This document shows positions 2-18,469 of a stretch of DNA of 35,858 nt, piece by piece (within the stretch, counting starts at the first letter, position 1; each line of letters starts with the position of its first letter). The stretch spans positions 1 through 35,858 of the forward strand of contig JARGFU010000040.1 in assembly GCA_029210625.1 (NCBI GenBank), read 5' to 3'. This stretch comes from Deltaproteobacteria bacterium (GTDB lineage: Bacteria; Myxococcota; Myxococcia; SLRQ01). The position numbers and the translations under genes are program-made. The notes under the pieces are model-generated. The model did not search any database. It was not told the DNA's origin and saw only the letters and a program-made list of their open reading frames with translations.

Positions 2-3000
2 AACGTGATCAACGCCGCCGGCACGATCATCGTCGACCGGGAGGCCCCGGTCGGCTCGATGATCATCGACGGCGGGGCCGCTTACGCGACCGGCGCGTCG
101 GTGGTGCTCACCTTCACCGCGCCGGCCGACACGGCCGACGTGCTCGTCTCCAACAGCCCCATCGCCGACTGCGGCACGGCCACCGGCTACGTCGCCTTCG
201 CGCCCTCCCGGTCGTGGACGCTCACCACCGGCGACGCCACCAAGACCGTCCACGCCTGCCTGCGCGACGCCGCGGGGAACACCTCCCCGGTCCAGGACGA
301 GATCATCCTCGACACCACCGATCCCACCGGCGGCAGCGTGGCCATCGACGGGGGCGCCGCCTACGCCACGAACACCCCGGTGACCCTGACGATCACCGCC
401 GACGCCGACGTGACCCACATGGCCGTGGGCAACGGCGCCCTCGACTGCGCCACCGCCACCTACGAGCCCTTCGCCAGCGTGCGCTCCTGGGTCCTGACCG
501 CCGGCGACGCCACCAAGACCGTCACGGTCTGCTTCCGGGACGCCGCCCGCCGGACGGGCAGCGCGTCGGACACGATCGTCCTGGACACCACCGTCCCCGC
601 CGGCTCGATCACCCTCGACGCCGGCGCGGCGGTCACCGACACCCTCACGGTGGCGGTCGACCTCGGCTACGCCAGCGACACCGCCGGCTACGCCCTGGCC
701 AACGGCGCCCTCGACTGCGGCGTCGCCACCTACACCGCCGCCACCGGCACGAGCCTCTCCACCACCTGGAGCCTCCCCTCGGGTGACGGCGTGAAGACCG
801 TGGTGGCCTGCTTCCGGGACAGCGCGGGCAACACCGCCTCCTACGCCACGACCATCACCCTCGACCAGACCGCCCCCGCCGGCTCCCTGACCATCGACGC
901 GGGCGCCACCTACGCGACGGCCCTCGGCGTGCAGCTCGGCGTCAGCGCGCCCAGCGACACCGCCTCCATGACCTTCTCGAACACGGCGATCGCCGACTGC
1001 GACGCCGCCACCGGCTGGCAGGCCTTCGCCCCGAGCCGGGCCTGGACCCTCGCCGCCGGCGACGGCACCAAGACCGTCCACGGCTGCCTGCGCGACGCGG
1101 CCGGCAACACCTTCGCCGTCCAGGACGAGATCGTCCTCGACACCACGAACCCCACCGGCGGCAGCGTCAGCATCGACGGCGGCGCCACCTACACCACCTC
1201 CACCCCGGTGACCCTCTCCATCGTGGGCGACGCCGACGTGACCTTCATGGCCGTGGGCAACGGCGCCCTCGACTGCGCCACCGCCACCTACGAGCCCTTC
1301 GCCAGCGTGCGCTCCTGGGTCCTGACCGCCGGCGACGCCACCAAGACCGTCACGGTCTGCTTCCGGGACGCCGCCCGCCGGACGGGCAGCGCGTCGGACA
1401 CGATCGTCCTGGACACCACCGTCCCCGCCGGCTCGATCACCCTCGACGCCGGCGCGGCGGTCACCGACACCCTCACGGTGGCGGTCGACCTCGGCTACGC
1501 CAGCGACACCGCCGGCTACGCCCTGGCCAACGGCGCCCTCGACTGCGGCGTCGCCACCTACACCGCCACCACCGGCACCAGCACCTCGACCACCTGGAGC
1601 CTGCCGGCCGGCGACGGCGTGAAGACCGTGGTCGTCTGCTTCGAGGACCAGGCCGGCAACGCCGCCTCCTACGCGACCACCATCACCCTCGACCAGACCG
1701 CGCCCGCCGGCGCCCTCTCCATCGACGACGGCGCGGCCTACACCGACGGCGTGGCCGTGCAGCTCGGCGTGACCGCCCCGGGCGACACGGCCCGGATGAC
1801 CTTCTCGAACACGGCGATCGCCGACTGCGACGCCGCCACCGGCTGGCAGGCCTTCGCCCCGAGCCGGGCCTGGACCCTCACCACCGGCGACGGCACCAAG
1901 ATCGTCTACGGCTGCCTCGAGGACGCCGCCGGGAACACCGCCGCGATCCTCGACCAGATCGTGCTCGACACCGCGGCGCCCGCCGGCACCGTCACCCTCC
2001 AGGGGGACCACGCCGGCTACACCCTCGCCGGCAGCGGCGCCGGCTACTCCTTCTCCACCGCGATCCAGGCCCTGCTCTCGGCGCCCACCGACACCCTGGA
2101 GGTCGCCCTGGGCGACGGTCCCACGCTCGACTGCAACACCGCCACCTATCAGGCCTACGCCGGGGTGATCCCCCGGACCCTGCCCGCCGGTGACGGCTCG
2201 AAGGACATCAGCGTCTGCTTCAAGGACGCCGCCGGGAACACGGCGAGCACCAGCGCCGCCATCAAGCTCGACACCGTGCCGCCGACGGCCGGCCTCAGCC
2301 TCGCGAGCGGCGCGTCCTACACCACCTCCCCCACCGTCTCGGTCGCGCTCACCTTCCTCGACGACACCAGCGGCTACGCCCTGGCCGAGTCGTCCCTCGA
2401 CTGCGCCGGCGCCACCTACACCCCGGTGAGCGTCGGGCTCACCTCCGCCTCGACGAGCTTCACCTTCTCCGCGGGGGACGGCACCAAGACCGTCGTCGCC
2501 TGCGTCCGCGAGGCCGCCGGGCGGGTCGCCTCCACCTCGAGCACCATCGTCCTCGACACCGTCCTGCCCACCGGCACGGTCACCATCGACGACGGCGCGA
2601 CCTACGCCACGAGCACCACGGCCTCCCTGCGCTTCGTCGTCCCGGCCGACACCCTGCGGATGTCGATCGCCAACGCCGCGACCCTCGACTGCGCGACGGC
2701 CACCTACGTGGGCTTCTCCTCCCCCTTCACCTGGTCCCTCTCCGCGGGCGACGGCCTGAAGACCGTCACGGTCTGCTTCGAGGACGCCGCCGGGAACCGG
2801 GACAGCGCCAGCGACACGATCACCCTGGACACCGCGAACCCCACCGGCTCGATGACCATCAACGCGGGCGCGACCCACACCCAGACCACCTCCGTGGTCC
2901 TCGACTTCACCGCCGCCGCCGACGTGACCGGCCTGGCGGTGCGGGAGGCCGCCACCCTCGACTGCGCCACCGCGGCCTACCAGCCCTACACCCCCTCGAT

Positions 3001-6000
3001 GGCCTTCACCCTCTCGGCCTCCGCCGGGAGCAAGAACCTGGTGGCCTGCTTCCAGGACGCCGCCGGCCGCACCGGCACCACCTCGGCGAGCATCATCCTC
3101 GACGCCTCGAGCCCCTCGGGCACCATCACCCTGGCCGGCGGCGCCGCCTACACCACCGGCACCACGGTGGCCGTGGCCCTGACCTTCCCCAACGACACCA
3201 CGGGCTACGCCCTGGGCGACGGCGTCATCGACTGTGACGCCGCCACCTACACCCCGGTCACGGTCGGCAACACCTCGGCCAGCACGACCCACTCCCTGCC
3301 GGGCGGCGACGGCACCAAGACGGTCTCGGCCTGCTTCACCGACGCGGCCACCAACACCGCCTGGAGCGCCGACACCATCATCCTCGACACGGCGCCGCCC
3401 TCCGGGACGGTCGCCATCGATCTCGGCGCCACCTACAACACCACCGGGACCTCGAGCCTCACCTTCTCGGCCCCCTCCGACACCACCGAGATGGCCGTGG
3501 TGAACGGCGCGACCATCAACTGCGGCACGGCGACCTACCAGGGCTTCGCCTCCCCCCTGGCCTGGCCCCTGCCCGGCGGTGACGGCACCAAGACCGTCAG
3601 CGTCTGCTTCAAGGACGCCGCCGGCCTCACCGCCAGCGCCCAGGACGCCATCGTGCTCGACACGACGGATCCCGCCGGCTCCCTGGCGATCCAGGGCGAC
3701 ACCAGCGGCTACACCCTGGTGGCCCCGGCCGCCGGCTACACCTTCTCGCCCAGCGTGAGCCTGGCGCTCTCCGCCCCGCCGGACACCACGAGCCTGGCCA
3801 TCGCCAACGGCGCGACCATCAACTGCGGCGCCGCCGCCTACCAGCCCTTCGCCAGCCTCGTCGCCCACACCCTCCCGGGCGCCGACGGCAGCAAGAGCGT
3901 CAGCGTCTGCTTCAAGGACGCGGCCGGCCGCACCAGCAGCACCACCGACTCCATCACCCTCGACACCGCTCCTCCGACCGGCTCGGTGAGCCTCGACGCG
4001 GGCGGCACCTACACCGCCGACCTCTCGGTCGCGGTGGGCCTCTCCTTCCTCGCCGACACCAACGGCTACGCCCTGGCCGAGAACTCGATCGACTGCGCCA
4101 GCGCCACCTACACCGCGGTCACCGTGGGGAACACCTCCGCCTCGACCTCCTTCACGATCTCGGGCGGTGACGGGATGAAGACCGTCGTCGCCTGCATCCG
4201 CGAGGCCGGCGGCCGGGCCGCCATGGCCCAGGACACCATCCTCCTCGACGCCAGCGCGCCGGCGGGAAGCCTCAGCATCGACAACGGCGCGATCTACGAC
4301 ATCGACGGCAGCGTCACCCTCACCTTCATCGCCCCGGCGGACACCGCCGACCTGGCGGTGGTCGACGGCACCGCCATCAACTGCGGCACCGCGACCTACC
4401 AGGCCTTCGTCTCCTCCCTGCCCTGGACCCTGCCGGGCGGCGACGGCACGAAGACCGTGAGCGTCTGCTACCGCGACGGGGCCGGCAACGCCGCCTCGAC
4501 CTCGGACTCGATCATCCTCGACACCTCCAGCCCGACCACGGGGACGGTGAGCATCGCCGCGGGCGCCACCTACACCACCGGCGCGGTGGTCAGCCTCGAC
4601 CTCACCGCTCCGGCGGACGTCGCCGAGGTCGCCATCGCCAACGGCAGCCTCGACTGCGGCACGGCCAGCTACGGCGCCTTCACCACGCCGCGCACCTGGG
4701 TGCTCTCCGCCGGCGACGGCGGCAAGACCGTCACCGCCTGCTTCCGGGACGCCGCCGGCCGCACCGGCTCTGCCTCGGACACCATCACCCTCGACACCCT
4801 GGCCCCGAGCGGCATCGTCACCCTGGCCGGCGGCAACACCTACGCCACCGGGACCCCGCTGGCCGTCTCGCTCTCCTTCCCCAACGACACCGCGGGCTAC
4901 GCCCTGGCCGAGGGCTCCCTCGACTGCGCCGCCGCCACCTACACCAGCGTCACCCTCGGTGACACCGCCGCCAGCACCACCTTCCCGCCCTCCATCGGCG
5001 ACGGGGTGAAGACGGTCGTCGCCTGCTTCCTGGACGCCGCGGGCAACCGCAGCTCGGCCGTGGACACGGTCACCCTCGACACCTCGCCGCCGGCGGGCGC
5101 CGTCGCCATCGACGCGGGCGCCACCTTCGCCACCTCCACCGGCGTCACCCTGAACCTGGCGGCCCCCTCCGACACCACCCTGATGGCGGTGCGGGAGACC
5201 GCCACCATCGACTGCAGCGACGGCACCCTGGTCTGGGAGGCCTTCGCCACCACCAAGGGCCTGACCCTGGGCGGCCAGGGTACCCGCACGGTCAGCGTCT
5301 GCTTCGAGGACGCCGCGGGCCTCCGGGCGAGCGCGATGGACAGCATCGTCGTCGACTCGGTGGCGCCGACCGGCTCGGTGCTCATCAACAACGGGGCCTC
5401 CCACACCCAGGCGACCTCGGTCACCCTCGACATCACCGCGGCGGCGGACGTGATCGCCCTCGCCGTGGCCGACGGCGGCTCGATCCTCTGCAGCAGCGCG
5501 ACCTACGAGCCCTTCTCGGCGGCCCGGGCCTGGACCCTGCCCGCGGGCGAGGGCAGCAAGACCGTCAGCGTCTGCCTCAAGGACGCCGCCGGGAACACCG
5601 CCTCGGTGAGCGACGCCATCACCCTCGACTCCACCGCGCCGACCACGGCGAGCCTCACGATCGACGCCGGCGCCGCCTACACCACCGCCTCGAACGCGCA
5701 GGTCACCCTCACCTTCTCCACCCCCGAGACCGTCACCGTCGCCTACGGCAACGAGTCGATCGACTGCGCCGGCGCCACCTACGGCGCCTTCGCCAGCCCG
5801 GTGAACAACCACCCCCTCCAGGACCAGGACGGCGTGCGCACGGTGGTGGCCTGCTTCAAGGACGCCGCGGGCTGGATCGTCTCCAAGAGTGACAGCATCA
5901 TCCTCGACCGCACGCCTCCGGCGGGCACGGTCGCCATCAACGGGGGCACCACCTACGCCACCTCGACCGGCGTGACCCTGAACCTCAGCGCGCCGGGCGA

Positions 6001-9000
6001 CGCCAATCAGATGGCGGTGCGCGAGACGACCAGCATCGACTGCGCCGACGGCACCCTGGTCTGGGAGGCCTTCGCCACCACCAAGGGCATCACCCTCGGC
6101 GGCCAGGGTACTCGCACCGTCAGCGTCTGCTTCAAGGACGCCGCCGGCCTGACCGCCAGCACCTCCGACGCCATCATCGTCGACTCGGTGGCCCCGACCG
6201 GCTCGGTGGCGATCGACAACGGCGCCTCGCACACCCAGACCGCCGCGGTGGTCCTCGACATCACCGCCGACGGGGACGTCACGGCCATCGCGGTGGCCGA
6301 CGGCGGCTCGCTCGTCTGCACCAGCGCGACCTACGAGCCCTTCTCCGCGGCGCGGGCCTGGACCCTGCCCGTCGGTGAGGGCAGCAAGACCGTCAGCGTC
6401 TGCCTGAAGGACGCCGCTGGCAACTCGGTTCGGGTCACCGACTCGATCACCGTCGACACGGTCCCGCCCTCGACGGCCACCCTCCAGATCGACGGCGGCG
6501 CGGCCTACACGACGCTGACCACGGCCCAGGTGACCCTCACCCTCACCACCCCCGAGACCGTGACCGTGGCCATCGGCAACGAGTCCATCGACTGCGCCAG
6601 CGCCACCTACGGCGCCTTCGCCGGCACGGTGAACAACTGGCCCCTCCAGGATCAGGACGGCGTGCGGACCGTGGTCGCCTGCTTCAAGGACGCCGCCGGC
6701 TGGATCGTCTCCAAGAGCGACGACATCATCCTCGACCGCGCCGCGCCGACCGTGGGCCTGACCATCGATGGTGGCGCCCTCTACACGACCGACGACCTGG
6801 TCGACCTGGCCATCACCGCCTCGGGCGACGTGTCCCAGATGTCGGTGAAGCTGGGCCTCCCGATCATCGACTGCGGCACGGCCTCCTACGTGCCCTTCAC
6901 CCCCTCGGTGGCCTCCTTCGACCTGGACCCGACGGACTCGAATCCGGACGGCTGGAAGTACGTCTCGGTCTGCGTCGAGGACGGCTCGGGCCAGCAGACG
7001 AAGGCCTACCGCAGCATCTACCTGGATCGTACCAACCCCACCGGCACCCTCGTGCTGGCCAACGGGGCCTCCCACACCAACGAGCGCAACGTGAGCGCGC
7101 AGATCCCCGCTTACTCCACGGATGTCACCCAGATGGCGGTGGCCGAGGGGTCCATCGACTGCGCCAGCGCGAGCTACTCGAGCTTCAACAACAACTTCCA
7201 GTTCATCCTCTCCGACAGCGACACCCTGCACACGGTGCTCGTCTGCCTGAAGGATCGCTCGGGAAGAACGGCCCAGATCTCGGACACGATCACCCTCGAT
7301 CGGAGCGCCCCCGGCGGCGCCCTCTCCATCAACGCCGGCGCCACCTGGAGCACCGTCCTCTCGGTCACCGCGACCATCACCAGCGCCGACGCCGCCTTCT
7401 ACGCCTATGCGGCCGAGACCATCGACTGCACCGCCGCGACCTACCAGGCCTTCTCGAGCCCCGAGACCCCGACCCTCGACCTGGTCGACAGCGACGGCAC
7501 CCGCAGCGTGGTGGCCTGCCTGAAGGACACGGCCGGGAACATCGCCACGGTCAGCGACACCATCAACCTCGACACGACGCCGCCGGTGATCATCAGCTTC
7601 ACGCGGGACGAGCTCTACTCCCAGGATGACAGCAACGACTTCACCCTGACGGCCTCGGACAACCTGTCCCTGAGCCAGATGCGCTACGCCCAGTACTCCA
7701 GCGGCGCCGGCGGCGTCTGGGAGGCCTTCGCCACCGACAAGACCTGGGACGTCAACGGCGCCTCCGCCAACACCTCGGGCATCTACTACACCTACGCCTG
7801 GGTCCGGGATGCCGCCGGGAACGTGAGCACCTCCCGCTACGCCTACACCTACACGGACTACCACGACCCCTCGATCACCAGCTTCACCGTGACCGACAGC
7901 GCCGGGACGACCCTGAGCGGCGGCACCGCCGACGACACGCTGGTCGTCATCAAGACCACCGTGCTCGAGCAGTACTTCGGGTGCAACTCCTACTGTCAGA
8001 TGCGCATCGGCGAGAACCCGACCCTCGCCGGGGTCGCCTGGCAGTCCTACGACTCCAACGCGAACTACATCCTCTCGGCGGCGAACGGCCCCAAGACCAT
8101 CTACGTCCAGGTGCAGGACCGCAGCGGCCGGGTGAGCACCATCGAATCCCAGACCCTGGACCTCGACACCCAGGCCCCGACCGTCGTGTCGCTCGAGGCA
8201 ACGAACCCGGTCGACATCTACACCAACAGCACCTCGGTCACGGTGGACATCACGGCCGACGACAACCTCTCGGTCGGCACCGATCTGGTCGCGGCCGTCG
8301 GCATCTACGGAACCGGGTTCACCTGCTCGAACGGCACCTACAGCTACCCCTTCCCGGGGAGCTGCACGGCCCCCCCCTGCACCCTCAGTCACACGACGAC
8401 CATCCCGCCGACCCTCGGTGGAAAGTACGTCCTCGCCTGCGTCGAAGACGCCGCCGGGAACAGGTCCGCCTCGTATCGCTACGCGTACGTCTACTACGAC
8501 AACGTCGTTCCCTCTCAGGTCACGGGCCTCTACCTCTCTCCGGGTAGCCGACAGATGACCGTCTCCTGGGCCACCGCGACCGACGCCAACTCCGGGGTGG
8601 ACCACTACCAGGTCCAGTACTCGACCAGCTCGGCCTTCGCCGGCGCGACCACCATCAACGTCGAGACCCCCACCGCCCTCATCGAGGGCCTCGACAACCT
8701 GGTCCCCTACTACGTGCACGTCCGGGCCGTGGACAAGGCGGGCAACTACGGCGCCTGGTCGGGCGACGAGTCGACCGTCCTGGGCATCGGTGTGAGCGCC
8801 GTCGGCCCCGAAGAGTACGATCGGGCCGGCGAGCGACCGACCCTCCTCTATGACGAGGGGATCCTCTGGGTCTTCGCCAAGACGCGCTACTACCCCACCA
8901 CGAACGCGGACGATCGGCAGGCCTTCCGCATCGGCCGCTGTGAGGCCGCCACGCTCGACTGCAAGAAGCCGGCGAACTGGACCTGGTTCACCGAGTACCC

Positions 9001-11428
9001 CGGCTACCGCTACATCTCCTCCGAGCGGCCCTCGGTGGTGGCCACCCAGGACGCGATCCTCGTGGCCAGCACGCAGGAGGACATCACCTCCGGCAACGTC
9101 GGTCAGTACATCATGTACTGCCGGAAGACCTCGGACTGCGCCTCCACGAGCGGCTGGGGCACCATGCAGCTCGCCGCCCCGGACGCCCTGAACCGGGATG
9201 GCTCCCTGAGCCTGGCGATGACGACCACCCACGTCGTCGCCGCCGCGCTCGTGGACGACGCCACGGACGTGCTGCGGATCTGGAGCTGCGAGCTCGGCTC
9301 CACTGACTGCACGACCGCCACGGACTGGTCCGCCACCCCCATCGACATCACCAACCCGATCGCCGGCCCGGTGAGCCTGGCCCCCGCCATGGTCGCGGAC
9401 GAGCGCTACGTCTGGATCATCCATCCCCAGGCGACGCTCACGGGCTGTCCGCTCTCGTGCCTCGCGAACGCCACGCTACGGGTGACCCGCTGTGACACCC
9501 GCACCGCCTCCGCGACGAGCGCCTGCGCGACGAGGACGACCAACAACATCGCGACCGCGAGCGCCTACTTCATGGACATGGATGCGACCATCGCCGATGG
9601 CACCATCTACGTGACCTACCGGACGCTGGAGGCGAGGAAGGCCGGCGTGAACGATCAGGAGATGCGCCGCTGCGCCCTCTCCTCGACCGGGGGATGCAGC
9701 GCCGGCGCGGACTGGTCCTCGGCGGGCATCTGGGCCAGCAACGTGAGGTACCCGGGGGGCGAGACCGGCACCCTCGACCTCGAGGGGGCCCCCGGGCAGC
9801 TCCACCTCACCCTCTGGGACCCCGACACCCAGTCCATCGAGTACCAGGTCTGCGAGAACCCGAGCAGCACGAACTGCACGATCCCGGGGAACTGGAGCGC
9901 CTTCCCCGTCCAGAACTACCAGACGACCTACTCGGCCCCGAGCCTGGAGGTCTACGGCACCAACATCGGCCTCACCTGGCTGAACCCCGATGACCACTTC
10001 ACCGTGGCGCTCCCCCGGGTCCCCTCGCCCCACGAGGACGCGTCCGTCGGCGGAGGGCTCGCGGAGCTCCGCGCCGGCTGGACCCCGAACCTGGAGGTCG
10101 CGGGGAACACGGTCGTCTACGCTCCGGGCGCCACCACGAACTGGCAGAGCCAGATCAACATCACCGATCCCTACCAGAGCATGACCTCCGTTCCCCTGAC
10201 CGCCGGGTCGAGTTACACCGCGGCGCTGCGCTCCTACTCCGCCCTCGGTGAGCCGTCGTCCGACTCGCGTCCCTTCCTCTTCAGGCCGCTGGCGGATCAG
10301 GGACCCGACCAGACGCTCCCCGACTCCGCCGCCTACGTCACCCGCTGGAGCAGCTACGGCGGTGGCCGGATCGTCCAGGCCTACACGGAGAACTACAACG
10401 TCGTCGTCGAGTGGTGTGCACCCTCCACCAGCAACTGCGCCATCTCGACCAACTGGACGAGGACCGTCGCCATCGGAACGGTCACCAACGTCACGCGCTT
10501 TGACGTGGAGACGGACGGCACCTACATCTTCGTCGTCGGATCCGACTTCGGTGACGGCTGGGTCAGCCGCTGCTCCTGGAGCTCCGCGTGCAACGCGGAC
10601 AGCGACTGGACCACCGAGTACCACTTCAGCACGAACCTCACCTACCCCCGGATCTCGATGGGCGCCGGGAAGCTCTGGGTCTTCTACATGAACCTCGCCG
10701 CCGTGGGCGGGCAGACCGCCTATGACCTATCGCTCGCCTTCTGCGACTACGCCACCTGCAACTCGACCTGGTACAACGTGCCCGTCACCACCGGCATCAG
10801 CGGCTTGGTCTACGGGTTCGACGTCGACGCGAGCGACCCCCGGATCGGCCTGGTCTACGAGGACAGCAACGACAACATCTATTACGACTACTGCCTCGCG
10901 GGTGCGGGGACCTGCGCCTTCTACGGGGCCACTCTCATCGCAACGGCACCCGCCATGGTCAGGCACTCGCTCAGGCTCGAGGTCGACGACGACGCCAACC
11001 ACCTCAATCGATCGGCGGTGACCGCGGCCTGGGGCGGAGAGCTCCACCTCCTGACCTGCCCCTTCGAGCCCTTCCAGTGCAACGACGGAACCAGCCGCTG
11101 GAATCACCTGACCCTGGGCCGGGCGGCCACGAAGGAACAGGAGAACAACTCGGAGGTCACCTTCGGGCCCGGCGAGTCCTACTTCGTCTTCAACACGGTG
11201 CGGGATCAGATCGTCCTCAACCGCTGCGACGACGACTGCTTCCTCATGAGCAACTGGAGCTCGCAGGCCGTCTACGACGCGGCCGGGCTGCAGGAGCCCT
11301 TCGAGAACTACTCGAACTCGGCCGTCGACCCGGCCACCGGCAGGTTCTACATCGGCAACACCACCCCCTCGGGGACCACGGACTTCGTCCTCCGCCTCCT
11401 GGGCGACGGTCTCTACGAGCCGCAGTAG
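2..11428 (+). CDS. Giant Ig-like repeat surface protein with FN3 and propeller-like C-terminus (5' partial)
   Basis: The frame is open from the window edge, so the N-terminus and signal peptide are outside; about 3,808 residues are visible. Residues 1 to about 2830 are some 30 modules of about 92 residues, each opening with a D-x-x-x-P-x-G type junction and running through 'GA-x-YTT', a 'DC-x-x-ATY' strand, 'GDG-x-KTV' and 'V-CF-x-DAAGN'. Two Cys per module at fixed sites suggest one disulfide each in modules 1-27. A fibronectin III module starts near residue 2835. The rest has twelve C-x(n)-C-x(n)-W motifs in two sets of six, separated by an FN3-like linker. Bacterial Ig-like tandem arrays are known in adhesins and cell-surface fibres; a secreted or surface role is inferred. 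No catalytic motif was recognised. The frame is uninterrupted over 11.4 kb. Confidence 0.9.
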   Translation, partial: NVINAAGTIIVDREAPVGSMIIDGGAAYATGASVVLTFTAPADTADVLVSNSPIADCGTATGYVAFAPSRSWTLTTGDATKTVHACLRDAAGNTSPVQDEIILDTTDPTGGSVAIDGGAAYATNTPVTLTITADADVTHMAVGNGALDCATATYEPFASVRSWVLTAGDATKTVTVCFRDAARRTGSASDTIVLDTTVPAGSITLDAGAAVTDTLTVAVDLGYASDTAGYALANGALDCGVATYTAATGTSLSTTWSLPSGDGVKTVVACFRDSAGNTASYATTITLDQTAPAGSLTIDAGATYATALGVQLGVSAPSDTASMTFSNTAIADCDAATGWQAFAPSRAWTLAAGDGTKTVHGCLRDAAGNTFAVQDEIVLDTTNPTGGSVSIDGGATYTTSTPVTLSIVGDADVTFMAVGNGALDCATATYEPFASVRSWVLTAGDATKTVTVCFRDAARRTGSASDTIVLDTTVPAGSITLDAGAAVTDTLTVAVDLGYASDTAGYALANGALDCGVATYTATTGTSTSTTWSLPAGDGVKTVVVCFEDQAGNAASYATTITLDQTAPAGALSIDDGAAYTDGVAVQLGVTAPGDTARMTFSNTAIADCDAATGWQAFAPSRAWTLTTGDGTKIVYGCLEDAAGNTAAILDQIVLDTAAPAGTVTLQGDHAGYTLAGSGAGYSFSTAIQALLSAPTDTLEVALGDGPTLDCNTATYQAYAGVIPRTLPAGDGSKDISVCFKDAAGNTASTSAAIKLDTVPPTAGLSLASGASYTTSPTVSVALTFLDDTSGYALAESSLDCAGATYTPVSVGLTSASTSFTFSAGDGTKTVVACVREAAGRVASTSSTIVLDTVLPTGTVTIDDGATYATSTTASLRFVVPADTLRMSIANAATLDCATATYVGFSSPFTWSLSAGDGLKTVTVCFEDAAGNRDSASDTITLDTANPTGSMTINAGATHTQTTSVVLDFTAAADVTGLAVREAATLDCATAAYQPYTPSMAFTLSASAGSKNLVACFQDAAGRTGTTSASIILDASSPSGTITLAGGAAYTTGTTVAVALTFPNDTTGYALGDGVIDCDAATYTPVTVGNTSASTTHSLPGGDGTKTVSACFTDAATNTAWSADTIILDTAPPSGTVAIDLGATYNTTGTSSLTFSAPSDTTEMAVVNGATINCGTATYQGFASPLAWPLPGGDGTKTVSVCFKDAAGLTASAQDAIVLDTTDPAGSLAIQGDTSGYTLVAPAAGYTFSPSVSLALSAPPDTTSLAIANGATINCGAAAYQPFASLVAHTLPGADGSKSVSVCFKDAAGRTSSTTDSITLDTAPPTGSVSLDAGGTYTADLSVAVGLSFLADTNGYALAENSIDCASATYTAVTVGNTSASTSFTISGGDGMKTVVACIREAGGRAAMAQDTILLDASAPAGSLSIDNGAIYDIDGSVTLTFIAPADTADLAVVDGTAINCGTATYQAFVSSLPWTLPGGDGTKTVSVCYRDGAGNAASTSDSIILDTSSPTTGTVSIAAGATYTTGAVVSLDLTAPADVAEVAIANGSLDCGTASYGAFTTPRTWVLSAGDGGKTVTACFRDAAGRTGSASDTITLDTLAPSGIVTLAGGNTYATGTPLAVSLSFPNDTAGYALAEGSLDCAAATYTSVTLGDTAASTTFPPSIGDGVKTVVACFLDAAGNRSSAVDTVTLDTSPPAGAVAIDAGATFATSTGVTLNLAAPSDTTLMAVRETATIDCSDGTLVWEAFATTKGLTLGGQGTRTVSVCFEDAAGLRASAMDSIVVDSVAPTGSVLINNGASHTQATSVTLDITAAADVIALAVADGGSILCSSATYEPFSAARAWTLPAGEGSKTVSVCLKDAAGNTASVSDAITLDSTAPTTASLTIDAGAAYTTASNAQVTLTFSTPETVTVAYGNESIDCAGATYGAFASPVNNHPLQDQDGVRTVVACFKDAAGWIVSKSDSIILDRTPPAGTVAINGGTTYATSTGVTLNLSAPGDANQMAVRETTSIDCADGTLVWEAFATTKGITLGGQGTRTVSVCFKDAAGLTASTSDAIIVDSVAPTGSVAIDNGASHTQTAAVVLDITADGDVTAIAVADGGSLVCTSATYEPFSAARAWTLPVGEGSKTVSVCLKDAAGNSVRVTDSITVDTVPPSTATLQIDGGAAYTTLTTAQVTLTLTTPETVTVAIGNESIDCASATYGAFAGTVNNWPLQDQDGVRTVVACFKDAAGWIVSKSDDIILDRAAPTVGLTIDGGALYTTDDLVDLAITASGDVSQMSVKLGLPIIDCGTASYVPFTPSVASFDLDPTDSNPDGWKYVSVCVEDGSGQQTKAYRSIYLDRTNPTGTLVLANGASHTNERNVSAQIPAYSTDVTQMAVAEGSIDCASASYSSFNNNFQFILSDSDTLHTVLVCLKDRSGRTAQISDTITLDRSAPGGALSINAGATWSTVLSVTATITSADAAFYAYAAETIDCTAATYQAFSSPETPTLDLVDSDGTRSVVACLKDTAGNIATVSDTINLDTTPPVIISFTRDELYSQDDSNDFTLTASDNLSLSQMRYAQYSSGAGGVWEAFATDKTWDVNGASANTSGIYYTYAWVRDAAGNVSTSRYAYTYTDYHDPSITSFTVTDSAGTTLSGGTADDTLVVIKTTVLEQYFGCNSYCQMRIGENPTLAGVAWQSYDSNANYILSAANGPKTIYVQVQDRSGRVSTIESQTLDLDTQAPTVVSLEATNPVDIYTNSTSVTVDITADDNLSVGTDLVAAVGIYGTGFTCSNGTYSYPFPGSCTAPPCTLSHTTTIPPTLGGKYVLACVEDAAGNRSASYRYAYVYYDNVVPSQVTGLYLSPGSRQMTVSWATATDANSGVDHYQVQYSTSSAFAGATTINVETPTALIEGLDNLVPYYVHVRAVDKAGNYGAWSGDESTVLGIGVSAVGPEEYDRAGERPTLLYDEGILWVFAKTRYYPTTNADDRQAFRIGRCEAATLDCKKPANWTWFTEYPGYRYISSERPSVVATQDAILVASTQEDITSGNVGQYIMYCRKTSDCASTSGWGTMQLAAPDALNRDGSLSLAMTTTHVVAAALVDDATDVLRIWSCELGSTDCTTATDWSATPIDITNPIAGPVSLAPAMVADERYVWIIHPQATLTGCPLSCLANATLRVTRCDTRTASATSACATRTTNNIATASAYFMDMDATIADGTIYVTYRTLEARKAGVNDQEMRRCALSSTGGCSAGADWSSAGIWASNVRYPGGETGTLDLEGAPGQLHLTLWDPDTQSIEYQVCENPSSTNCTIPGNWSAFPVQNYQTTYSAPSLEVYGTNIGLTWLNPDDHFTVALPRVPSPHEDASVGGGLAELRAGWTPNLEVAGNTVVYAPGATTNWQSQINITDPYQSMTSVPLTAGSSYTAALRSYSALGEPSSDSRPFLFRPLADQGPDQTLPDSAAYVTRWSSYGGGRIVQAYTENYNVVVEWCAPSTSNCAISTNWTRTVAIGTVTNVTRFDVETDGTYIFVVGSDFGDGWVSRCSWSSACNADSDWTTEYHFSTNLTYPRISMGAGKLWVFYMNLAAVGGQTAYDLSLAFCDYATCNSTWYNVPVTTGISGLVYGFDVDASDPRIGLVYEDSNDNIYYDYCLAGAGTCAFYGATLIATAPAMVRHSLRLEVDDDANHLNRSAVTAAWGGELHLLTCPFEPFQCNDGTSRWNHLTLGRAATKEQENNSEVTFGPGESYFVFNTVRDQIVLNRCDDDCFLMSNWSSQAVYDAAGLQEPFENYSNSAVDPATGRFYIGNTTPSGTTDFVLRLLGDGLYEPQ
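418..739 (+). repeat. 322-bp perfect direct repeat, copy 1
   Basis: Identical to 1246-1567 at an offset of 828 bp, covering most of modules 2 and 3. Identity ends with mismatches at 416-417 and at 740. A second exact block, 968-1051 against 1796-1879 (84 bp), has the same 828-bp offset. Confidence 0.9.
1246..1567 (+). repeat. 322-bp perfect direct repeat, copy 2
   Basis: Second copy of the block at 418-739. Even synonymous sites are identical, so the copy is recent or kept alike by gene conversion. It is also a likely site of short-read assembly collapse. Confidence 0.9.
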
Positions 11429-11477: not shown

Positions 11478-13008
11478 GAAGCTGCGCGTCTTCCTGGTCG
11501 CCATCTTCGGGCTGACCGCCCTCACCCTCACCCTGGTCGTGCGGGCGGCGACGATGCCGCTGCCCCCGCCGCCCGCCGCGGTGGCGGTGCCAGAGGCCCT
11601 CGCCTCCCTCGACGAGGCGGACCTGCAGGCGGCGGCCGAGCGCCTGGCCGGCGCCCTGCGCTTCCCGACGACCTCCCAGGGGGGCTTCCTCCGGCCCGCC
11701 ACCCCGGCGCCGGAGGACGACGCCGACGCGGGCGAGGGGGAGCCGCGAGAGCGTCCGGCGAACGCCTTCGAGGGGCTGCTGCGCTACCTGGCGGAGAGCT
11801 TCCCCCAGGTCCACGCGAAGCTCGCCCCGGAGCGCGTCGGCGAGCTCGGCCTCCTCTTCTCCTGGCGGCCCGAGCTCCCGGCCGAGGCCCTCCTCCTGGT
11901 CTGCCACCTCGACGTGGTGCCGGCGGGCAACCCCGAGGCCTGGAAGCAGCCGCCCTTCTCCGGGGCGATCGTGGAGGGCGAGATCTGGGGGCGGGGTGCC
12001 CTCGACGACAAGGGCTCCTGCCTGGCGGTCCTGGAGGCGACCGAGCGGCTCCTCGGCGCCGGCTTCGAGCCGAAGCGCCCGGTCCTCCTCGCCATGGGCA
12101 TGGACGAGGAGATCGGCGGCCGGGGCGCGCAGGAGATCGCCGCTCACCTGGCGGCGAAGGGCGTGCGGGCCCACCTGGTGCTGGACGAGGGGCTCGCCGT
12201 CACCGAGGGCGTGGTCAAGGGCCTCGAGCGCCCGGCGGCCCTCATCGGCCTGGCCGAGAAGCGCTACTTCACCGTGGAGCTGAAGGCCCGGGCGAAGGGC
12301 GGTCACAGCTCGATGCCGCCGGCCCGCACCGCCATCGGCCGGCTGGGCGAGGCCCTCGCCCGCCTCGAGCAGCACCAGCTGCCCGCCTCCCTCGACGGGC
12401 CGGCCGGCTCCCTCCTCGACGGCATCGCGCCGGAGCTGCCCTTCGGCCAGCGCCTGGGCATCGCCAACCGCTGGCTCCTGGCGCCGGTGCTGGCGGGCAA
12501 GCTCGCGGCCCAGCCGGCCACCAACGCCCTGATCCGCACCACCACCGCGCCGACCCTCTTCTCGGCCGGGGTGAAGGAGAACGTGCTGGCCACCGAGGCC
12601 AACGCCACGGTGAACTTCCGGATCCGCCCGGGCGAGACCGGCCTCGACGTGATGGAGCACGTGCGACAGGTGGTGCAGGGCCTCGAGATCGAGGTCAGCG
12701 CCCCGGGGGAGCCGCCGGTGGAGGAGTCGCCGGTCTCACCGGCCGAAGGGGCGGCCTACGAGCAGCTGCGCTCGGCCATCGCCGCGGCCTTCCCCGACGC
12801 CCTGATCGCCCCCAGCCTGGTCCTCGGCGCCACCGACGCCCGCCACTACACGGGTCTCTCGAGGAGCGTGTACCGCTTCGGCCCCTGGCGGTTGGACCCC
12901 GAGGCCCTGGAGACCATCCACGGCCACGACGAGCGGGTCCCGCTCGCCCACTACGGAGAGGCCATCCGCTTCTACGGCACCCTCGTCCAAGCCGCCGCCG
13001 GAGGGTGA
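11476..13008 (+). CDS. M20 family metallopeptidase (carboxypeptidase PM20D1/CPS1-like)
   Basis: 510 residues. It starts with a hydrophobic N-terminal segment (about residues 3-20, MKLRVFLVAIFGLTALTLT), likely an uncleaved anchor or signal peptide, so the enzyme should face the periplasm. The di-zinc M20 ligands can be seen in order: the His and Asp of CHLDVV, the bridging Asp of GALDDKGS, the catalytic Glu pair in MDEEIGG, the Asp/Glu of VLDEG and the late His of IHGHDER. A dimerisation-type insert (KGGHSSMPP) sits between the halves. This order fits the PM20D1/yeast CPS branch, which cleaves or condenses N-acyl or C-terminal amino acids; the actual substrate is unknown. The open frame continues upstream through the giant gene's 3' end, but this ATG is chosen for its hydrophobic start and short spacing. 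It lies 47 bases after the giant gene. Confidence 0.88.
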   Translation: MKLRVFLVAIFGLTALTLTLVVRAATMPLPPPPAAVAVPEALASLDEADLQAAAERLAGALRFPTTSQGGFLRPATPAPEDDADAGEGEPRERPANAFEGLLRYLAESFPQVHAKLAPERVGELGLLFSWRPELPAEALLLVCHLDVVPAGNPEAWKQPPFSGAIVEGEIWGRGALDDKGSCLAVLEATERLLGAGFEPKRPVLLAMGMDEEIGGRGAQEIAAHLAAKGVRAHLVLDEGLAVTEGVVKGLERPAALIGLAEKRYFTVELKARAKGGHSSMPPARTAIGRLGEALARLEQHQLPASLDGPAGSLLDGIAPELPFGQRLGIANRWLLAPVLAGKLAAQPATNALIRTTTAPTLFSAGVKENVLATEANATVNFRIRPGETGLDVMEHVRQVVQGLEIEVSAPGEPPVEESPVSPAEGAAYEQLRSAIAAAFPDALIAPSLVLGATDARHYTGLSRSVYRFGPWRLDPEALETIHGHDERVPLAHYGEAIRFYGTLVQAAAGG

Positions 13009-13014
13009 TAGGCT
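13009..13014 (+). promoter_or_regulatory. Possible -10 (TAGGCT) for kinase gene
   Basis: TAGGCT starts immediately after the M20 peptidase stop and ends 10 bases before the kinase ATG at 13025. The predicted leader is about 3-4 bases. The -35 region is poor. Confidence 0.35.
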
Positions 13015-13024
13015 GGGAGCCTCG

Positions 13025-14749
13025 ATGGGCTCGACCTCACTCGGCCAGTACGAGCTGCTCTCACGCATCGCTCACGGGGGGATGGCGGAGATCTTCCTCG
13101 CCAAGCGGCGAGGACCGGGCGGCTTCGACAAGCGGGTGGTGATCAAGCGGGTGCTGCCCCACCTCACGGAGAACGAGAACTTCGTGAGGATGTTCCTGGA
13201 CGAGGCGCGCCTGGTCTCTCGCCTCTCCCACCCGAACATCATCCAGATCTTCGACTTCGGGGTCATCGACGGGATCTACTTCCTCTGCATGGAGCACCTC
13301 GACGGCGAGGACCTCGCCACGGTGCTGCGGGTCCTGCGGGATCGGGGCGAGCTCATGCCGCCCCAGGTGGCGGCCTCCATCCTCTCGGCGGCCTGCGACG
13401 GGATGCACTACGCCCACACCCTGGTGGACGAGGAGGGGCAGCCCCTGCGGATCGTCCACCGGGACCTCTCCCCCTCGAACCTCTTCCTCACCCTCCAGGG
13501 GGCGGTGAAGGTCCTCGACTTCGGGGTCGCCCAGATGGAGGGGAAGCTGGTCGAGACCCAGAGCGGGGTGGTGAAGGGGAAGTTCGCCTACCTCTCCCCC
13601 GAGCAGGCGCTGGGCAACGAGCTGGATCTCCGCAGCGACGTCTTCGCCCTGGGCCTGATCCTCCACGAGGCCCTCACCGGCCAGAAGGTCTTCAAGCGCG
13701 CGACCGAGGCCGCCACCCTGCGGGCGGTCCTGGAGGAGCCCATCGAGCACCCCCGCAAGCTGCGCGAGGACCTGCCCGAGGAGCTGAACCGCATCGTCAT
13801 GAAGGCGCTGGCTCGCTCGCCCCTCGATCGCTGGCAGAGCGCCCAGGAGATGCGCACCGCCCTCGACGAGTTCCTCTCCTCCCGGGGCTCGGTCCCGGCG
13901 GCCGCGCAGCTCCAGGCCTTCATGCAGTCCATCGTCGGCGAGGCCCGCGCCAGCGCCTCGGCGCTCACCCCGGCGGGCAGCGGCCTGGGGGCGGTGCTGC
14001 CCCCCGCGACCGCGGCCGAGGCCCGCCTCTCGGAGATCACCCGGGAGGACGCCCCAGGCCTGGGCGCCACCTCGGTGGAGCGCACGCCCTCCCTCGGCAC
14101 CTCCGGCGCCCGGCGGCCCGCGCCGGCCCCGCTGCACGTGGCGGTGACCGAGGACTACCAGCCCCAGCCCGCGCGGCACCGGCGCTCGATCTCGGTCTTC
14201 CTCGCGGTGATCCTCTGCGCCACCGTCATCGCCGGGGGGTGGTGGCTGGGGCAGGGCGCCCGGGAGGCCGAGGAGATCGGCGCCGAGCCCGCCGCGCCCG
14301 AGGCCGTGCCCGAGACCGGGCCCACGGAAGAGACGGCGGCGGCGGCCCCCGCCGAGCCCGCCGCCCCTCCCTCCGCCGGGGAGAGCGCCGCCCTCGCCGT
14401 GGCGGGCCGCACGGCCGCCGGGCTCACGGTCGGCCAGGCCGTCTCCCGCAAGGGGCGCCCGGGCGGGAAGGCGAGGGGCAAGGGCAAGGCCCCCGGCAAG
14501 GCGAAGACCGCCGCCCCGGCCGAGCCCCCGCCGGCCCCGGCCACCGGCCGGCTCGACGTCAACTGCAAGCCCTTCTGCCGGATCCACATCGACGGCGAGG
14601 ACACCGGGAAGATCTCTCCGGCCCTGGGGCTGGTGCTGCCCGAGGGGGATCACCTCCTGAAGCTGGTCAACCCCCCGACCCAGCTGACCCGGGAGAAGAA
14701 GGTCCGGATCGAGGCCGGCAAGACGGCCCGGGTGACCATCACCTTCTGA
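13025..14749 (+). CDS. Ser/Thr protein kinase with TM segment and C-terminal PEGA domain
   Basis: 574 residues. A Hanks-type kinase domain fills about residues 8-285: glycine loop (IAHGGMAEIFLAK), catalytic Lys in VVIKRV, HRDLSPSN catalytic loop, DFG, and an SPEQ in place of APE. The Lys of HRDxKPxN is Ser here, a variant I associate with myxobacterial kinases. A linker rich in Ala, Pro and Glu follows. One transmembrane helix lies near 388-410 (VFLAVILCATVIAGGWW), then a basic Lys/Gly/Ala stretch and a PEGA domain at about 508-574 that should be extracytoplasmic. The layout is a membrane receptor kinase whose PEGA part could contact envelope proteins. It starts 16 bases after the peptidase gene and heads a co-oriented run with another PEGA protein, which suggests a shared envelope task. 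Confidence 0.93.
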   Translation: MGSTSLGQYELLSRIAHGGMAEIFLAKRRGPGGFDKRVVIKRVLPHLTENENFVRMFLDEARLVSRLSHPNIIQIFDFGVIDGIYFLCMEHLDGEDLATVLRVLRDRGELMPPQVAASILSAACDGMHYAHTLVDEEGQPLRIVHRDLSPSNLFLTLQGAVKVLDFGVAQMEGKLVETQSGVVKGKFAYLSPEQALGNELDLRSDVFALGLILHEALTGQKVFKRATEAATLRAVLEEPIEHPRKLREDLPEELNRIVMKALARSPLDRWQSAQEMRTALDEFLSSRGSVPAAAQLQAFMQSIVGEARASASALTPAGSGLGAVLPPATAAEARLSEITREDAPGLGATSVERTPSLGTSGARRPAPAPLHVAVTEDYQPQPARHRRSISVFLAVILCATVIAGGWWLGQGAREAEEIGAEPAAPEAVPETGPTEETAAAAPAEPAAPPSAGESAALAVAGRTAAGLTVGQAVSRKGRPGGKARGKGKAPGKAKTAAPAEPPPAPATGRLDVNCKPFCRIHIDGEDTGKISPALGLVLPEGDHLLKLVNPPTQLTREKKVRIEAGKTARVTITF

Positions 14750-14783
14750 CCCGCCATCTCTTCGTTCCGGCGACGCCTCGGGC

Positions 14784-14789
14784 TAAGGT
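14784..14789 (+). promoter_or_regulatory. Possible -10 (TAAGGT) for PEGA/TPR gene
   Basis: TAAGGT ends 8 bases before the ATG at 14798; TTCGTT lies 17 bases upstream (14761-14766) as a weak -35. A near-leaderless start is predicted. Confidence 0.4.
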
Positions 14790-14797
14790 GTCGCGCC

Positions 14798-15835
14798 ATG
14801 GTCGGGTCGAAGTGCAGCCTCCGGGGCGCCTCTTTGGCGCTGCTCGCCGCCGGGCTCCTCTGCGCGCTCCCCCACGCCGCCGCCGGGGAGAGCGGCCTGC
14901 GCGAGACCGCCGCCGGCGACGCGAAGCGGAGGCTGGTGAAAGGCCGCGACGCCCTCGACGGGATGCGCTACGCGGAGGCGATCTCCCTCCTCGGCGAGGC
15001 CCTGGAGTTCTTCCGGGAGGCGGACCTCACGCTCCACCGGGCCGCGCTCGCCGAGACCCAGGGGCTGCTGGCGGCCGCCCACCTCTTCGCCGACGACGAG
15101 GCCGAGGCCCGCAACACCCTGCGGGCCCTCTTCACCGTGGATCCCACCTGGGACCTGCCCGTCGAGCGGCGCTCACCGAAGCTCGGCGCCCTGATCGACA
15201 CCGTCCGCGCCGAGCTCTCCGCCCTGCAGCGCGCGCCCCTCGAGGTGCGCTCGAGCCCCGAGGGGGCCCGGGTGATCCTCGACGGCCTCGAGCTGGGCCT
15301 CACCCCCCTGACGACCGCCCCCCTCCTCCCGGGGCGCCACGTCCTCGCCCTCGAGCGCGAGGGCGCCCTGCCCCGGCAGGAGGTGATCTTCGTCGGCCCG
15401 GACACGAAGCTCGACTGGGTCCTCGAGGCACAGCCCGAGCCCGAGCCCGAGGCGCCCGGGCCGCAGGCGCCGGTGGCCGCCGCCCCCGTGACGGCGCCGC
15501 GGCGCCCGGGCTTCCTGCGGCGGCACCGCGCCGAGCTGCTCCTGGGCACCGCCGGCGTGAGCGTGGCCTCGTCGGTGCTCCTCCTCTGGCAGGCCCAGAC
15601 CCTCGCCGACGACGCGGCCTTCATCCCCCAGCCCGACACGGCGGACTACGATCGCCAGATCGGCCGCGCCCGGAACCTCAACCGGAGCGGCAACGCCCTC
15701 ATCTACGTCTCGGCCGCGGCCGGCCTCCTGGGCGCCTACTACCTCTTCTCGGATGGGGCCGACGAGCCGGGCCTGAGGGCCGCCGCCCTCCCCCTCCCCG
15801 GCGGCGGCGCCCTCACCTTCGGAGGCACCTTCTGA
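14798..15835 (+). CDS. Exported PEGA-domain protein with TPR-like N-terminal region
   Basis: 345 residues. A signal peptide (about 1-30, ending HAAAGE) is followed by a helical region (45-140) that resembles the TPR-type repeats of myxobacterial periplasmic proteins. A PEGA domain covers about 150-205 (LEVRSSPEGARVILDG, GLTPL, PGRHVL). A Pro/Glu-rich linker then leads to two hydrophobic segments at about 245-266 and 300-318, so the protein is probably membrane-associated. Its stop codon overlaps the start of the next gene (TGATG). PEGA domains are beta-rich modules linked to S-layer or cell-wall proteins; the function here is inferred only from the neighbouring PEGA kinase. Confidence 0.85.
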   Translation: MVGSKCSLRGASLALLAAGLLCALPHAAAGESGLRETAAGDAKRRLVKGRDALDGMRYAEAISLLGEALEFFREADLTLHRAALAETQGLLAAAHLFADDEAEARNTLRALFTVDPTWDLPVERRSPKLGALIDTVRAELSALQRAPLEVRSSPEGARVILDGLELGLTPLTTAPLLPGRHVLALEREGALPRQEVIFVGPDTKLDWVLEAQPEPEPEAPGPQAPVAAAPVTAPRRPGFLRRHRAELLLGTAGVSVASSVLLLWQAQTLADDAAFIPQPDTADYDRQIGRARNLNRSGNALIYVSAAAGLLGAYYLFSDGADEPGLRAAALPLPGGGALTFGGTF

Positions 15836-16794
15836 TGCGTCGCCTCCTCCCCCTCGCGCTCGTCCTCGCCCTGGCGACCAGCGCCTGCCTCGTCGGCCTG
15901 AAGCTGCCCGGCGAGGAGGGGCGCCCCTGCGGCGCCGGGGAGAGCTGCCTGCCCGGCTTCGAGTGCCGGGCCGGGGTCTGCGAGCAGAGCCTCATCGGCC
16001 GCCCCTGCGACTTCGTCTTCGACGACTGCGAGCGGGGCTTCTGCTACTTCAGCGCCGCGGCCGACGCCTTCTGCACGATCGCCTGCAGCGCCAGCAGCCA
16101 GTGCCCGGCCGGCTTCCGCTGCGCCGACCGGAGCGAGGACGGCGCCTTCGTCTGCCTGCCGCCGAGCCTGGCCGGCGGCAGCGTGGGCAGCGCCGCCCTC
16201 GGGGATCCCTGCCTCCTGGACGACGACTGCCAGTCGGGCTTCTGCGAGAGCGAGGTCTGCGCCGACACCTGCCAGCGGCAGGACGACTGCGGCGGCGACG
16301 GCAGCTACGAGTGCCAGGTCGTGAGCCGCGGGGGGAGGAGCGGCGCCTTCTGCGGCCCGACCGCCGCCAGCGGAGGCCTGCAGGGCGAGGTCTGCGCCGA
16401 CTCCGCGGAGTGCGCCCGCGGCGTCTGCGCCGACAACTCCCCGGATCCCTCCACCTGCAGCGATCCCTGCTGCTCGAGCGCTGACTGCCCGCCCGGACAC
16501 ATCTGCTGGCTCGTGACCTGGGCCGACTGGCAGCGCGGCGACGGCCTGCCCCGCACCTGCGTGGAGTTCCAGTCCCCCGGCTCCACCCCCATCGGGGACC
16601 CCTGCGTCGACGACTACGACTGCGCCCGCGGGAGCTGCGTCATCGATCCGCAGACCGAGCGCGCCGCCTGCTCGGACGTCTGCTGCACGGACGCCGACTG
16701 CGGCGCCGGCTACCGCTGCGAGCCGATTCCCTACGACGTGGATGACGATGGGACCGACGACAGCTATCTTCCCTTCTGCGTGACCCGCCCATGA
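15835..16794 (+). CDS. Cys-rich putative lipoprotein
   Basis: 319 residues with 39 Cys. The start ATG overlaps the upstream stop (TGATG), which fixes the start and implies coupled translation. The N-terminus is a signal peptide ending in LALATSAC; the Cys at residue 18 fits a lipobox, although Thr at position -3 is unusual. The mature part repeats C-x(4-6)-C-x(3-4)-C patterns with Asp before Cys (DDDC, CCTDADC, CCSSADC), a style common in secreted Cys-rich proteins of myxobacteria. Multiple disulfides are expected and an extracytoplasmic location follows. No enzyme motif was seen. It sits between a PEGA protein and a carboxypeptidase-regulatory-like protein, overlapping the latter by four bases. 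Confidence 0.87.
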   Translation: MRRLLPLALVLALATSACLVGLKLPGEEGRPCGAGESCLPGFECRAGVCEQSLIGRPCDFVFDDCERGFCYFSAAADAFCTIACSASSQCPAGFRCADRSEDGAFVCLPPSLAGGSVGSAALGDPCLLDDDCQSGFCESEVCADTCQRQDDCGGDGSYECQVVSRGGRSGAFCGPTAASGGLQGEVCADSAECARGVCADNSPDPSTCSDPCCSSADCPPGHICWLVTWADWQRGDGLPRTCVEFQSPGSTPIGDPCVDDYDCARGSCVIDPQTERAACSDVCCTDADCGAGYRCEPIPYDVDDDGTDDSYLPFCVTRP

Positions 16795-18407
16795 GACTCC
16801 TCCTCGCCACGCTGATCGTCGCCCTGACGCCCCTCTCCCTGCAGGCCTTCGAGGTCAAGCGGAAGGCGCCCCCCCCGACCTGGGAGGGGAAGGTCCGGAA
16901 GATCCCCACCAAGGGGAAGAAGGACGAGGACGAGGCCCCCGCGCGGAAGCCCAAGAAGACGGCCGGCCCGGGCGAGACCCTGATCTGGGGTCAGGTGGTC
17001 GACCACGAGGGCAAGGCGCGCACCGGGGGCGTGGTGAACGTGGTGGTGGACCCCGTCTCCAGCCTGGAGCGCTCCTACCCCGGCTTCGGCGAGGGCCAGG
17101 TCGAGGGGATGGAGAAGCTCGACGAGGAGGGCTGGTTCGAGATCGTGCGGAAGGTGCCCGACGGCCGCCACCTGGTGAAGGCGCTGGTGGACGAAGGCGA
17201 CAACCTCCGGGTCGCCACCGCCGAGGTGGTCGTCGCCGATCGCTGGGCCGAGCCCGTGACCCTGCGGCTGGGCACCCCGGTGCAGCTCCAGGGCATCGTC
17301 ACCGACACCGCCAAGAAGCCCCTGGCGAGGGTCCCGCTGGCCATCGTGCCGGTGCCGCCCCCCTCCCTCGGCGGAGAGACCGGCCTGCGCCGGCCCTCCC
17401 CCGGCAGCCTCACCCACGTGGAGAGCGCCGCCGACGGGACCTTCACCTTCGACCCCGTGGACCCGGGCCGCTACGCGGTCTTCCCCGTCGGGGCGACCTA
17501 CCACACCGGCGGCACCCTCATCGTCCACGCCGGAGACAAGGCCACGCTGATCGTCAGCAAGAAGCCGATCCTCTCGGCGAAGGTGGTCGATCAGGAGGGT
17601 CACCCGATCCCGGTCTTCCAGGCGAAGCTCGACGGCGAGCCCGCCGGCTTCTTCCGCAACGGCGTGCTCGAGCTCGCCCTCGCCCGCCGCGATGCCGGCG
17701 CCGGGGTGCTCGAGCTGCTGGCCCCCGAGCACCCCGCCTACACCGTGCCCCAGTCCATCCCCCTCCAGGGCACCGACGACCTCGACCTCGGCGAGCTGAA
17801 GCTCCCCGAGGGCCGCAAGCTGCTCCTGCAGATCCGCGGCCTGGTGAAGGGGCCGAACGTCTCCGGCGGCGAGGAGGACGGGCAGGACTCCGATCACCTC
17901 GAGGTGCGGGTCTTCCGCCAGGTCGGCAGCGAGCAGGTCGAGGAGCCGGCGCTGGTCCTCCCCGAGCCCGTCAGCGAGAAGGGCGGCCTCTCCTACGAGC
18001 TCAAGGGCCTCTCCGAGGAGCCCCTCCAGTTCCTCCTCGAGGCCCCCGGCCGGGCCCCCTTCTTCCTGGAGGTGCCCAGGGGCGCCAAGAAGGTGCGGGG
18101 CCTCTTCAAGCGGGGCTCGCAGCTGGAGCTGACCGTGCTCAACCCGGGCAACCTCCCGGTGCCCGAGGCCGTGGTGCACCTGCGCCAGGAGCTGCGCGGC
18201 GTCTCCTTCCTCCACAAGGGCGTGGCGGGCCAGTACGGGCGGGTGGAGTTCTCCGGGCTCATCGGCGGGGACGCCGTCGTGCAGATCACCGCGACCGGGA
18301 TGGAGCCCACCGAGCGGACCCTCGAGGTGCCCGAGCGGGGCCGCCACACCGAGCGGCTGACCCTCAAGAAGGAGAAGCCGAAGGTCGCGCCGCCGCAGGG
18401 CGGATGA
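16791..18407 (+). CDS. Exported protein with carboxypeptidase-regulatory-like domains
   Basis: 538 residues; the ATG overlaps the previous stop (ATGA). A signal peptide (MRLLLATLIVALTPLSLQA) precedes a basic, Lys-rich segment (residues 23-60). Then come several beta-sandwich units that look like the carboxypeptidase regulatory-like / DUF4198 type: GQVVDHEG (about 67), GIVTDTAKKPLARVPL (about 166), SAKVVDQEGHPIPV (about 263) and LNPGNLPVPEAVVHL (near 450). These domains are non-catalytic and common in envelope and surface proteins. It is the last gene of the 13025-18407 run. I see no protease active site. Confidence 0.85.
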   Translation: MRLLLATLIVALTPLSLQAFEVKRKAPPPTWEGKVRKIPTKGKKDEDEAPARKPKKTAGPGETLIWGQVVDHEGKARTGGVVNVVVDPVSSLERSYPGFGEGQVEGMEKLDEEGWFEIVRKVPDGRHLVKALVDEGDNLRVATAEVVVADRWAEPVTLRLGTPVQLQGIVTDTAKKPLARVPLAIVPVPPPSLGGETGLRRPSPGSLTHVESAADGTFTFDPVDPGRYAVFPVGATYHTGGTLIVHAGDKATLIVSKKPILSAKVVDQEGHPIPVFQAKLDGEPAGFFRNGVLELALARRDAGAGVLELLAPEHPAYTVPQSIPLQGTDDLDLGELKLPEGRKLLLQIRGLVKGPNVSGGEEDGQDSDHLEVRVFRQVGSEQVEEPALVLPEPVSEKGGLSYELKGLSEEPLQFLLEAPGRAPFFLEVPRGAKKVRGLFKRGSQLELTVLNPGNLPVPEAVVHLRQELRGVSFLHKGVAGQYGRVEFSGLIGGDAVVQITATGMEPTERTLEVPERGRHTERLTLKKEKPKVAPPQGG

Positions 18408-18421
18408 GCCTCTCCGGTATC

Positions 18422-18450: not shown

Positions 18451-18469
18451 CCGCCTCCCTTCACGGGAT

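Follow-up and report, generated by a model that had tools for sequence, protein, structure and literature searches.

A predicted pair of beta-propellers with C..C..W staples at the head of a candidate giant surface lipoprotein from a deltaproteobacterium

The last ~880 residues of a giant open reading frame in the window, our term for the whole 35,858-nucleotide stretch of DNA analysed here (Deltaproteobacteria bacterium, contig JARGFU010000040.1), would form two seven-bladed beta-propellers in tandem. A disulfide would pin the loop between strands C and D in six of the blades of either propeller, and the Trp that opens strand D would pack beside it; the seventh blade would be assembled from three C-terminal strands and the N-terminal strand and, being without a covalent C-D hairpin, would carry no motif. 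We consider it fairly likely that these stapled propellers make up the head of a giant lipoprotein on the cell surface, with a stalk of ~30 Ig-like domains, and that the protein is most likely an adhesin whose head binds surface carbohydrates.

The reading frame and its cysteine motifs

The frame holds an array of bacterial Ig-like domains, estimated from its length at ~30 repeats, followed by an FN3 domain that joins this stalk to the head, which is the last 884 residues (2925-3808). The preliminary description of this DNA had reported twelve C..C..W motifs in two groups of six, and our census agrees with it in both counts and positions. All 26 Cys of the head lie in short C-x(n)-C pairs, of which 12 are motif pairs. 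The motifs fall into one set of six at nt 8939-9895 and another at nt 10415-11257, spaced 50-68 residues from motif to motif within the sets and 188 between them. The full C..C..W is kept in 10 of the 12; the Trp is missing from blades 4 and 10 (first Cys 3164 and 3631), where the Cys pair is still present. This is far above chance, as 20,000 shuffles of the 884 residues averaged 0.49 motifs and never exceeded 5; the 2924 residues upstream of the head contain 60 Cys and no motif. The features of the frame, with each motif given from its first Cys, are as follows.

2-11428, plus strand: open reading frame, at least 3808 aa; 5' end lost at the contig start, no start codon in view
2-8497, plus strand: stalk, bacterial Ig-like (Big_13) array, ~93 aa per repeat (Pfam)
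8537-8761, plus strand: FN3 domain joining stalk to head (PF00041, E 3.6e-08)
8939-8980, plus strand: motif 1 (C2980-W2993), C-D hairpin of blade 1 (sequence and model)
9119-9157, plus strand: motif 2 (C3040-W3052), blade 2 (sequence and model)
9287-9328, plus strand: motif 3 (C3096-W3109), blade 3 (sequence and model)
9491-9526, plus strand: motif 4 (C3164-C3175), blade 4, without Trp (sequence)
9671-9715, plus strand: motif 5 (C3224-W3238), blade 5 (sequence and model)
9851-9895, plus strand: motif 6 (C3284-W3298), blade 6 (sequence and model)
10415-10456, plus strand: motif 7 (C3472-W3485) (sequence)
10571-10609, plus strand: motif 8 (C3524-W3536) (sequence)
10742-10771, plus strand: motif 9 (C3581-W3590) (sequence)
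10892-10915, plus strand: motif 10 (C3631-C3638), without Trp (sequence)
11057-11101, plus strand: motif 11 (C3686-W3700) (sequence)
11225-11257, plus strand: motif 12 (C3742-W3752) (sequence)

The one pair outside the motifs, C3149/C3153 (window 9446-9460), lies just upstream of motif 4, within an insertion in the Trp-less blade 4. Within the Ig-like array (window ~400-1650), two protein stretches that start from ~residues 136 and 412, each >100 residues long, look near-identical by eye, which suggests a recent duplication or conversion. Antisense to the array runs an open frame of 3141 aa (window 2-9424, minus strand), probably a by-product of GC-rich repeated codons. The downstream genes (window 11497-24483) encode an M20 peptidase, two Ser/Thr protein kinases (one with TPR), and PEGA, carboxypeptidase-regulatory-like and HD-domain proteins, and they have no evident connection to the head.

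Predicted fold and blade number

Folding used alignments of three sequences, namely the window head, L026 and L027 (the last two from the same loci as L022 and L023 below); a six-row alignment that mixed both propellers (A6) had blade 1 mis-registered and was left out. With AlphaFold2, propeller 1 alone gave seven four-stranded A-B-C-D sheets closed by the N-terminal strand (mean pLDDT 68.3, pTM 0.79), and as a prediction it thus belongs to the seven-bladed propeller fold class. The first Cys falls within the last three residues of strand C in 6/6 cases and the Trp at most one residue from the start of strand D in 5/5, and there is a short turn after the second Cys in most of blades 1-6. Blade 7 consists of strands 390-394, 397-403 and 409-414 together with the N-terminal strand 5-9 (~nt 8786-8800), and contains no Cys.

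8786-10015, plus strand: propeller 1, seven blades (model residues 5-414; model and structural matches)
9896-10015, plus strand: blade 6 strand D and blade 7 strands A-B-C, no Cys (model)
10022-10276, plus strand: linker between the propellers, FN3-like by eye only (Pfam and PDB profile searches)
10346-11401, plus strand: propeller 2 (twin-model residues 525-876), low confidence (twin model)

When propeller 1 was compared with known structures by VIA-align, rows 1-12 were all PLL/PHL lectins and BP39L (Z 27.6-28.4; rmsd 2.8-3.0 A over 308-317 residues), in a list from which the absence of a family carries no evidential weight. Foldseek, ranked on E-value, returned a mixture of sialidases, GH43 and prolyl oligopeptidases at modest TM (best TMt 0.60). 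The propellers of prolyl oligopeptidase, BT3686, CylK and integrin are seven-bladed, and those of sialidases six-bladed. Because its ranking mixes propeller types, Foldseek by itself does not settle the blade number.

The even split of the motifs had originally been read as twin six-bladed rings with one motif per blade. Six evenly spaced motifs per half fit that reading, as do the six-bladed sialidases among the Foldseek rows, but we regard it as very improbable: the propeller 1 model has seven sheets, the structural ranking is led by seven-bladed lectins, and each sixth motif is followed by ~40-55 residues with three strands. Blades in the model therefore outnumber motifs, a mismatch of the kind that the preliminary description had itself held against its proposal, and they do so for a reason that explains the number six. 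If the last blade takes its strand D from the N-terminus, a continuous C-D hairpin exists in n-1 blades, and a motif in the C-D loop is thus possible n-1 times; six motifs would then mean seven blades, as the N-terminal strand closes blade 7 and leaves no C-D hairpin for a motif. Going by the model, propeller 1 is most likely seven-bladed rather than six-bladed. The companion idea of one disulfide per blade holds for every motif-bearing blade, each with one Cys pair, and fails for the modelled seventh.

In the twin model of the whole head the mean pLDDT was 54.1, and linker residues 414-526 were under 50. At this low confidence, propeller 2 has the same strand order as propeller 1, its first Cys ends a strand in 6/6 motifs, and three strands (848-852, 857-863 and 869-876) come after motif 12. 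The twin model is weak and was built from a three-sequence alignment. What speaks for propeller 2 is accordingly its strand order and its homology, and as modelled it is likely seven-bladed. The earlier proposal of two propellers in tandem is thus supported by the propeller 1 model, the strand order of propeller 2 and homology, and we consider the fold and the staples well supported. The linker had been likened to FN3, which is plausible; a contactin-6 chain was its one match, and the sole match overall, in the PDB profile search (E 0.037), and Pfam support is absent, with no match in 6/6 linkers.

Relatives within the phylum

The genome that contains the window encodes two paralogues of the head, on contigs C8 and C16. 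The C8 paralogue, an open frame of 3384 aa, has a lipobox-like N-terminus (by eye) and three carboxypeptidase-regulatory-like stretches, and continues through Ig-like domains, FN3 and both propellers to a C-terminal CBM35/CBM6 (E 1.7e-10 and 7.5e-10); it aligns with the window copy, which is without a CBM, across FN3 and head at 24% identity. A blade HMM made from one paralogue detects the other merely as a sum of weak domains. The same genome also encodes a Cys-poor, lipoprotein-like relative of 504 aa (C2:210737-211552), which scored 40.1 bits, whereas the top score among 200 shuffles was 1.0.

Genome searches were confined to the phylum of the window (up to 195 genomes), where a two-sequence profile had matches in 5 of 195 genomes, a four-sequence profile in 7 of 96 and an eight-sequence profile in 25 of 195. 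We examined 16 of these 25 matching genomes, leaving out G069, G082, G092, G106, G122, G126, G153, G157 and G188. In eight of the 16, under seven family labels, long proteins carry the twin head (G000, G068, G070, G159, G165, G166, G167 and G171), in seven, short proteins carry a single propeller (G022, G108, G110, G118, G150, G151 and G154), and in G129 the long form is degenerate. Relatives at ~22% identity again show the 6+6 design. In a strict count, requiring five residues between the second Cys and W or F, the twin heads have 12 motifs in C8, L022 and L023, 11 in L044 and 8 in the window (10 with looser spacing); heads poorer in motifs have 8 (C16), 7 (L045), 5 (L025) and 3 (L024), and those ending at contig or ORF ends have 8 (L078), 7 (L046) and 7 (L042). 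Single propellers have six motifs in 6 of 7 cases and four in L082. From these counts, six per propeller is the common design, with losses in the window copy and in other heads; the heavier losses, in L024, L025, L045 and C16, weigh against the reading.

The single-propeller proteins are 477-586 aa long where the frame is complete and mostly have a lipobox-like start and a Gly-rich stretch before the propeller. In hhalign comparisons these lipoproteins match propeller 1 (97.3%) and propeller 2 (95.8%) blade by blade. A pattern scan of genome contigs gave 55 pattern matches, which came down to two loci that were both already known (G166 and G167); the patterns were strict, so the scan says little on other phyla. 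By eye, L044, L046 and L078 have a big insertion after the second motif of the second propeller, and in L025 an unrelated-looking, lamin-tail-like domain is inserted in the Ig-like array at residues ~1740-1910.

Bacterial databases contain many blade repeats of a similar kind. Nothing exceeded the Pfam or NCBIfam cut-offs in the propellers of the window head or its relatives, in keeping with the initial remark that no named family was known to have this pattern, and a PDB sequence search with the head (phmmer, E up to 1) gave no match. Phage and plasmid collections, queried with the window head and the cleaner L026 head, likewise gave no match, and viral contigs no relative. In searches of the open-access literature, outside which most subscription papers lie, no title or abstract listed describes a twin-propeller C..C..W family. 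The fold is a known one, the propeller, and the family is unnamed in the libraries searched; the matches define an unannotated family of surface heads in the phylum of the window. To our knowledge, receptors for prey or partner contact in that phylum are poorly known.

Possible role and comparison with known systems

The ligand and role of the head are what we infer. By analogy with its paralogues, the window copy would carry a lipid anchor. The Cys pairs would be oxidised, and the staple, at the place of an Asp-box, probably stiffens the outer rim outside the cell, an oxidising place. Carbohydrate binding is suggested by the CBM on the C8 paralogue and by the lectin-like fold. We believe it improbable that the propellers act instead as enzymes, either glycoside hydrolases or polysaccharide lyases, on polysaccharides of the surface or of prey. 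The VIA-align list does place BT3686-type glycoside hydrolases and a rhamnose-glucuronate lyase nearby (Z 25.4-26.4), and a BNR_4 match in the Cys-poor relative is weak and below threshold (E 0.0025), but no polar catalytic set is common to the eight twin heads, and conserved active sites are not what two degenerating copies per protein would suggest. Across those heads 21 columns are invariant, namely Cys, Trp, Gly and Pro plus one Asp beside a motif Cys, and because these are structural they argue for a scaffold that binds and not for a conserved enzyme.

Such a scaffold might hold protein ligands. The same fold could serve as a protein-protein receptor or a structural cap, in cell-cell contact, matrix or surface layer, and not as a carbohydrate binder; integrin alpha and LGI1 propellers are in the VIA-align list (Z ~22-23.6), and no sugar site was recognised, nor any sugar-binding residue identified, in the head. 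However, the CBM35/CBM6 of C8 and the top-ranked lectins both point to glycans, neither decisively, and we judge the receptor or cap less likely. Returning to the carbohydrate-binding adhesin, a fuller version is possible, and we offer it tentatively: in an unnamed family of one phylum, a C-D-loop disulfide would have replaced an Asp-box-like staple in all blades with a C-D hairpin, giving a paired, glycan-reading head on long Ig-like lipoprotein stalks, its two propellers reading different ligands. We also suggest a simple rule: a secreted bacterial protein with n repeats of C-x(3-7)-C-x5-W is predicted to form a propeller of n+1 blades, since the blade that closes the ring is without a C-D hairpin.

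The PLL/PHL lectins agree with propeller 1 in predicted fold and in their seven blades (model, pLDDT 68), and they and BP39L lie at Z ~27-28.4 from it, with CV39L at 24.9; identity between PLL/PHL and propeller 1 is 8-14%, and the PDB sequence search detected no homology. As far as the excerpts available describe them, PLLs are small lectins with W-motifs in all seven blades (PMC12203525, PMC5584973), and PLL/PHL sugar sites lie between blades and comprise paired Trp and polar residues (PMC12203525). Binding of fucosylated or O-methylated sugars is a feature of PLL/PHL. Those excerpts of the PLL descriptions (PMC12203525, PMC5584973) show neither a C..C..W staple within the blade, as proposed here, nor a tandem arrangement of propellers nor a stalk of Ig type.

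A parallel to the staple itself is the Asp-box of BNR propellers, among them sialidases and sortilin. The excerpt available describes it as a short motif, ending in Trp, that lies in the loop of strands 3-4 and stabilises the outer rim, with an aromatic residue starting strand 4 (PMC2716378). The motif of the head lies in the same place but has a Cys pair where the Asp-box has its Ser/Asp/Gly pattern. The Asp that an Asp-box has five residues ahead of its Trp occurs in 25 of 100 motifs from twin heads and in 3 of 40 from single propellers. The window has no BNR family match (Pfam, E up to 1), and the Asp-box consensus repeats are not found there. By this analogy, the Cys motif would work like an Asp-box and is not a member of the Asp-box family.

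For the closing blade there is a precedent in a solved structure, CyRPA of Plasmodium falciparum, which according to the excerpt available has six blades and five disulfides, with none in the blade closed by the N- and C-terminal strands (PMC5349852); as proposed for the head, every blade save that one bears a disulfide. CyRPA is six-bladed, eukaryotic and without a shown sequence relation to the head, so that it is a precedent for the logic only. In the Cys-poor relative from the same genome, inspection by eye shows seven A-B hairpins and a Trp in six C-D loops, the same blade pattern but in blades without Cys pairs, and these are the numbers that the closing-blade logic predicts.
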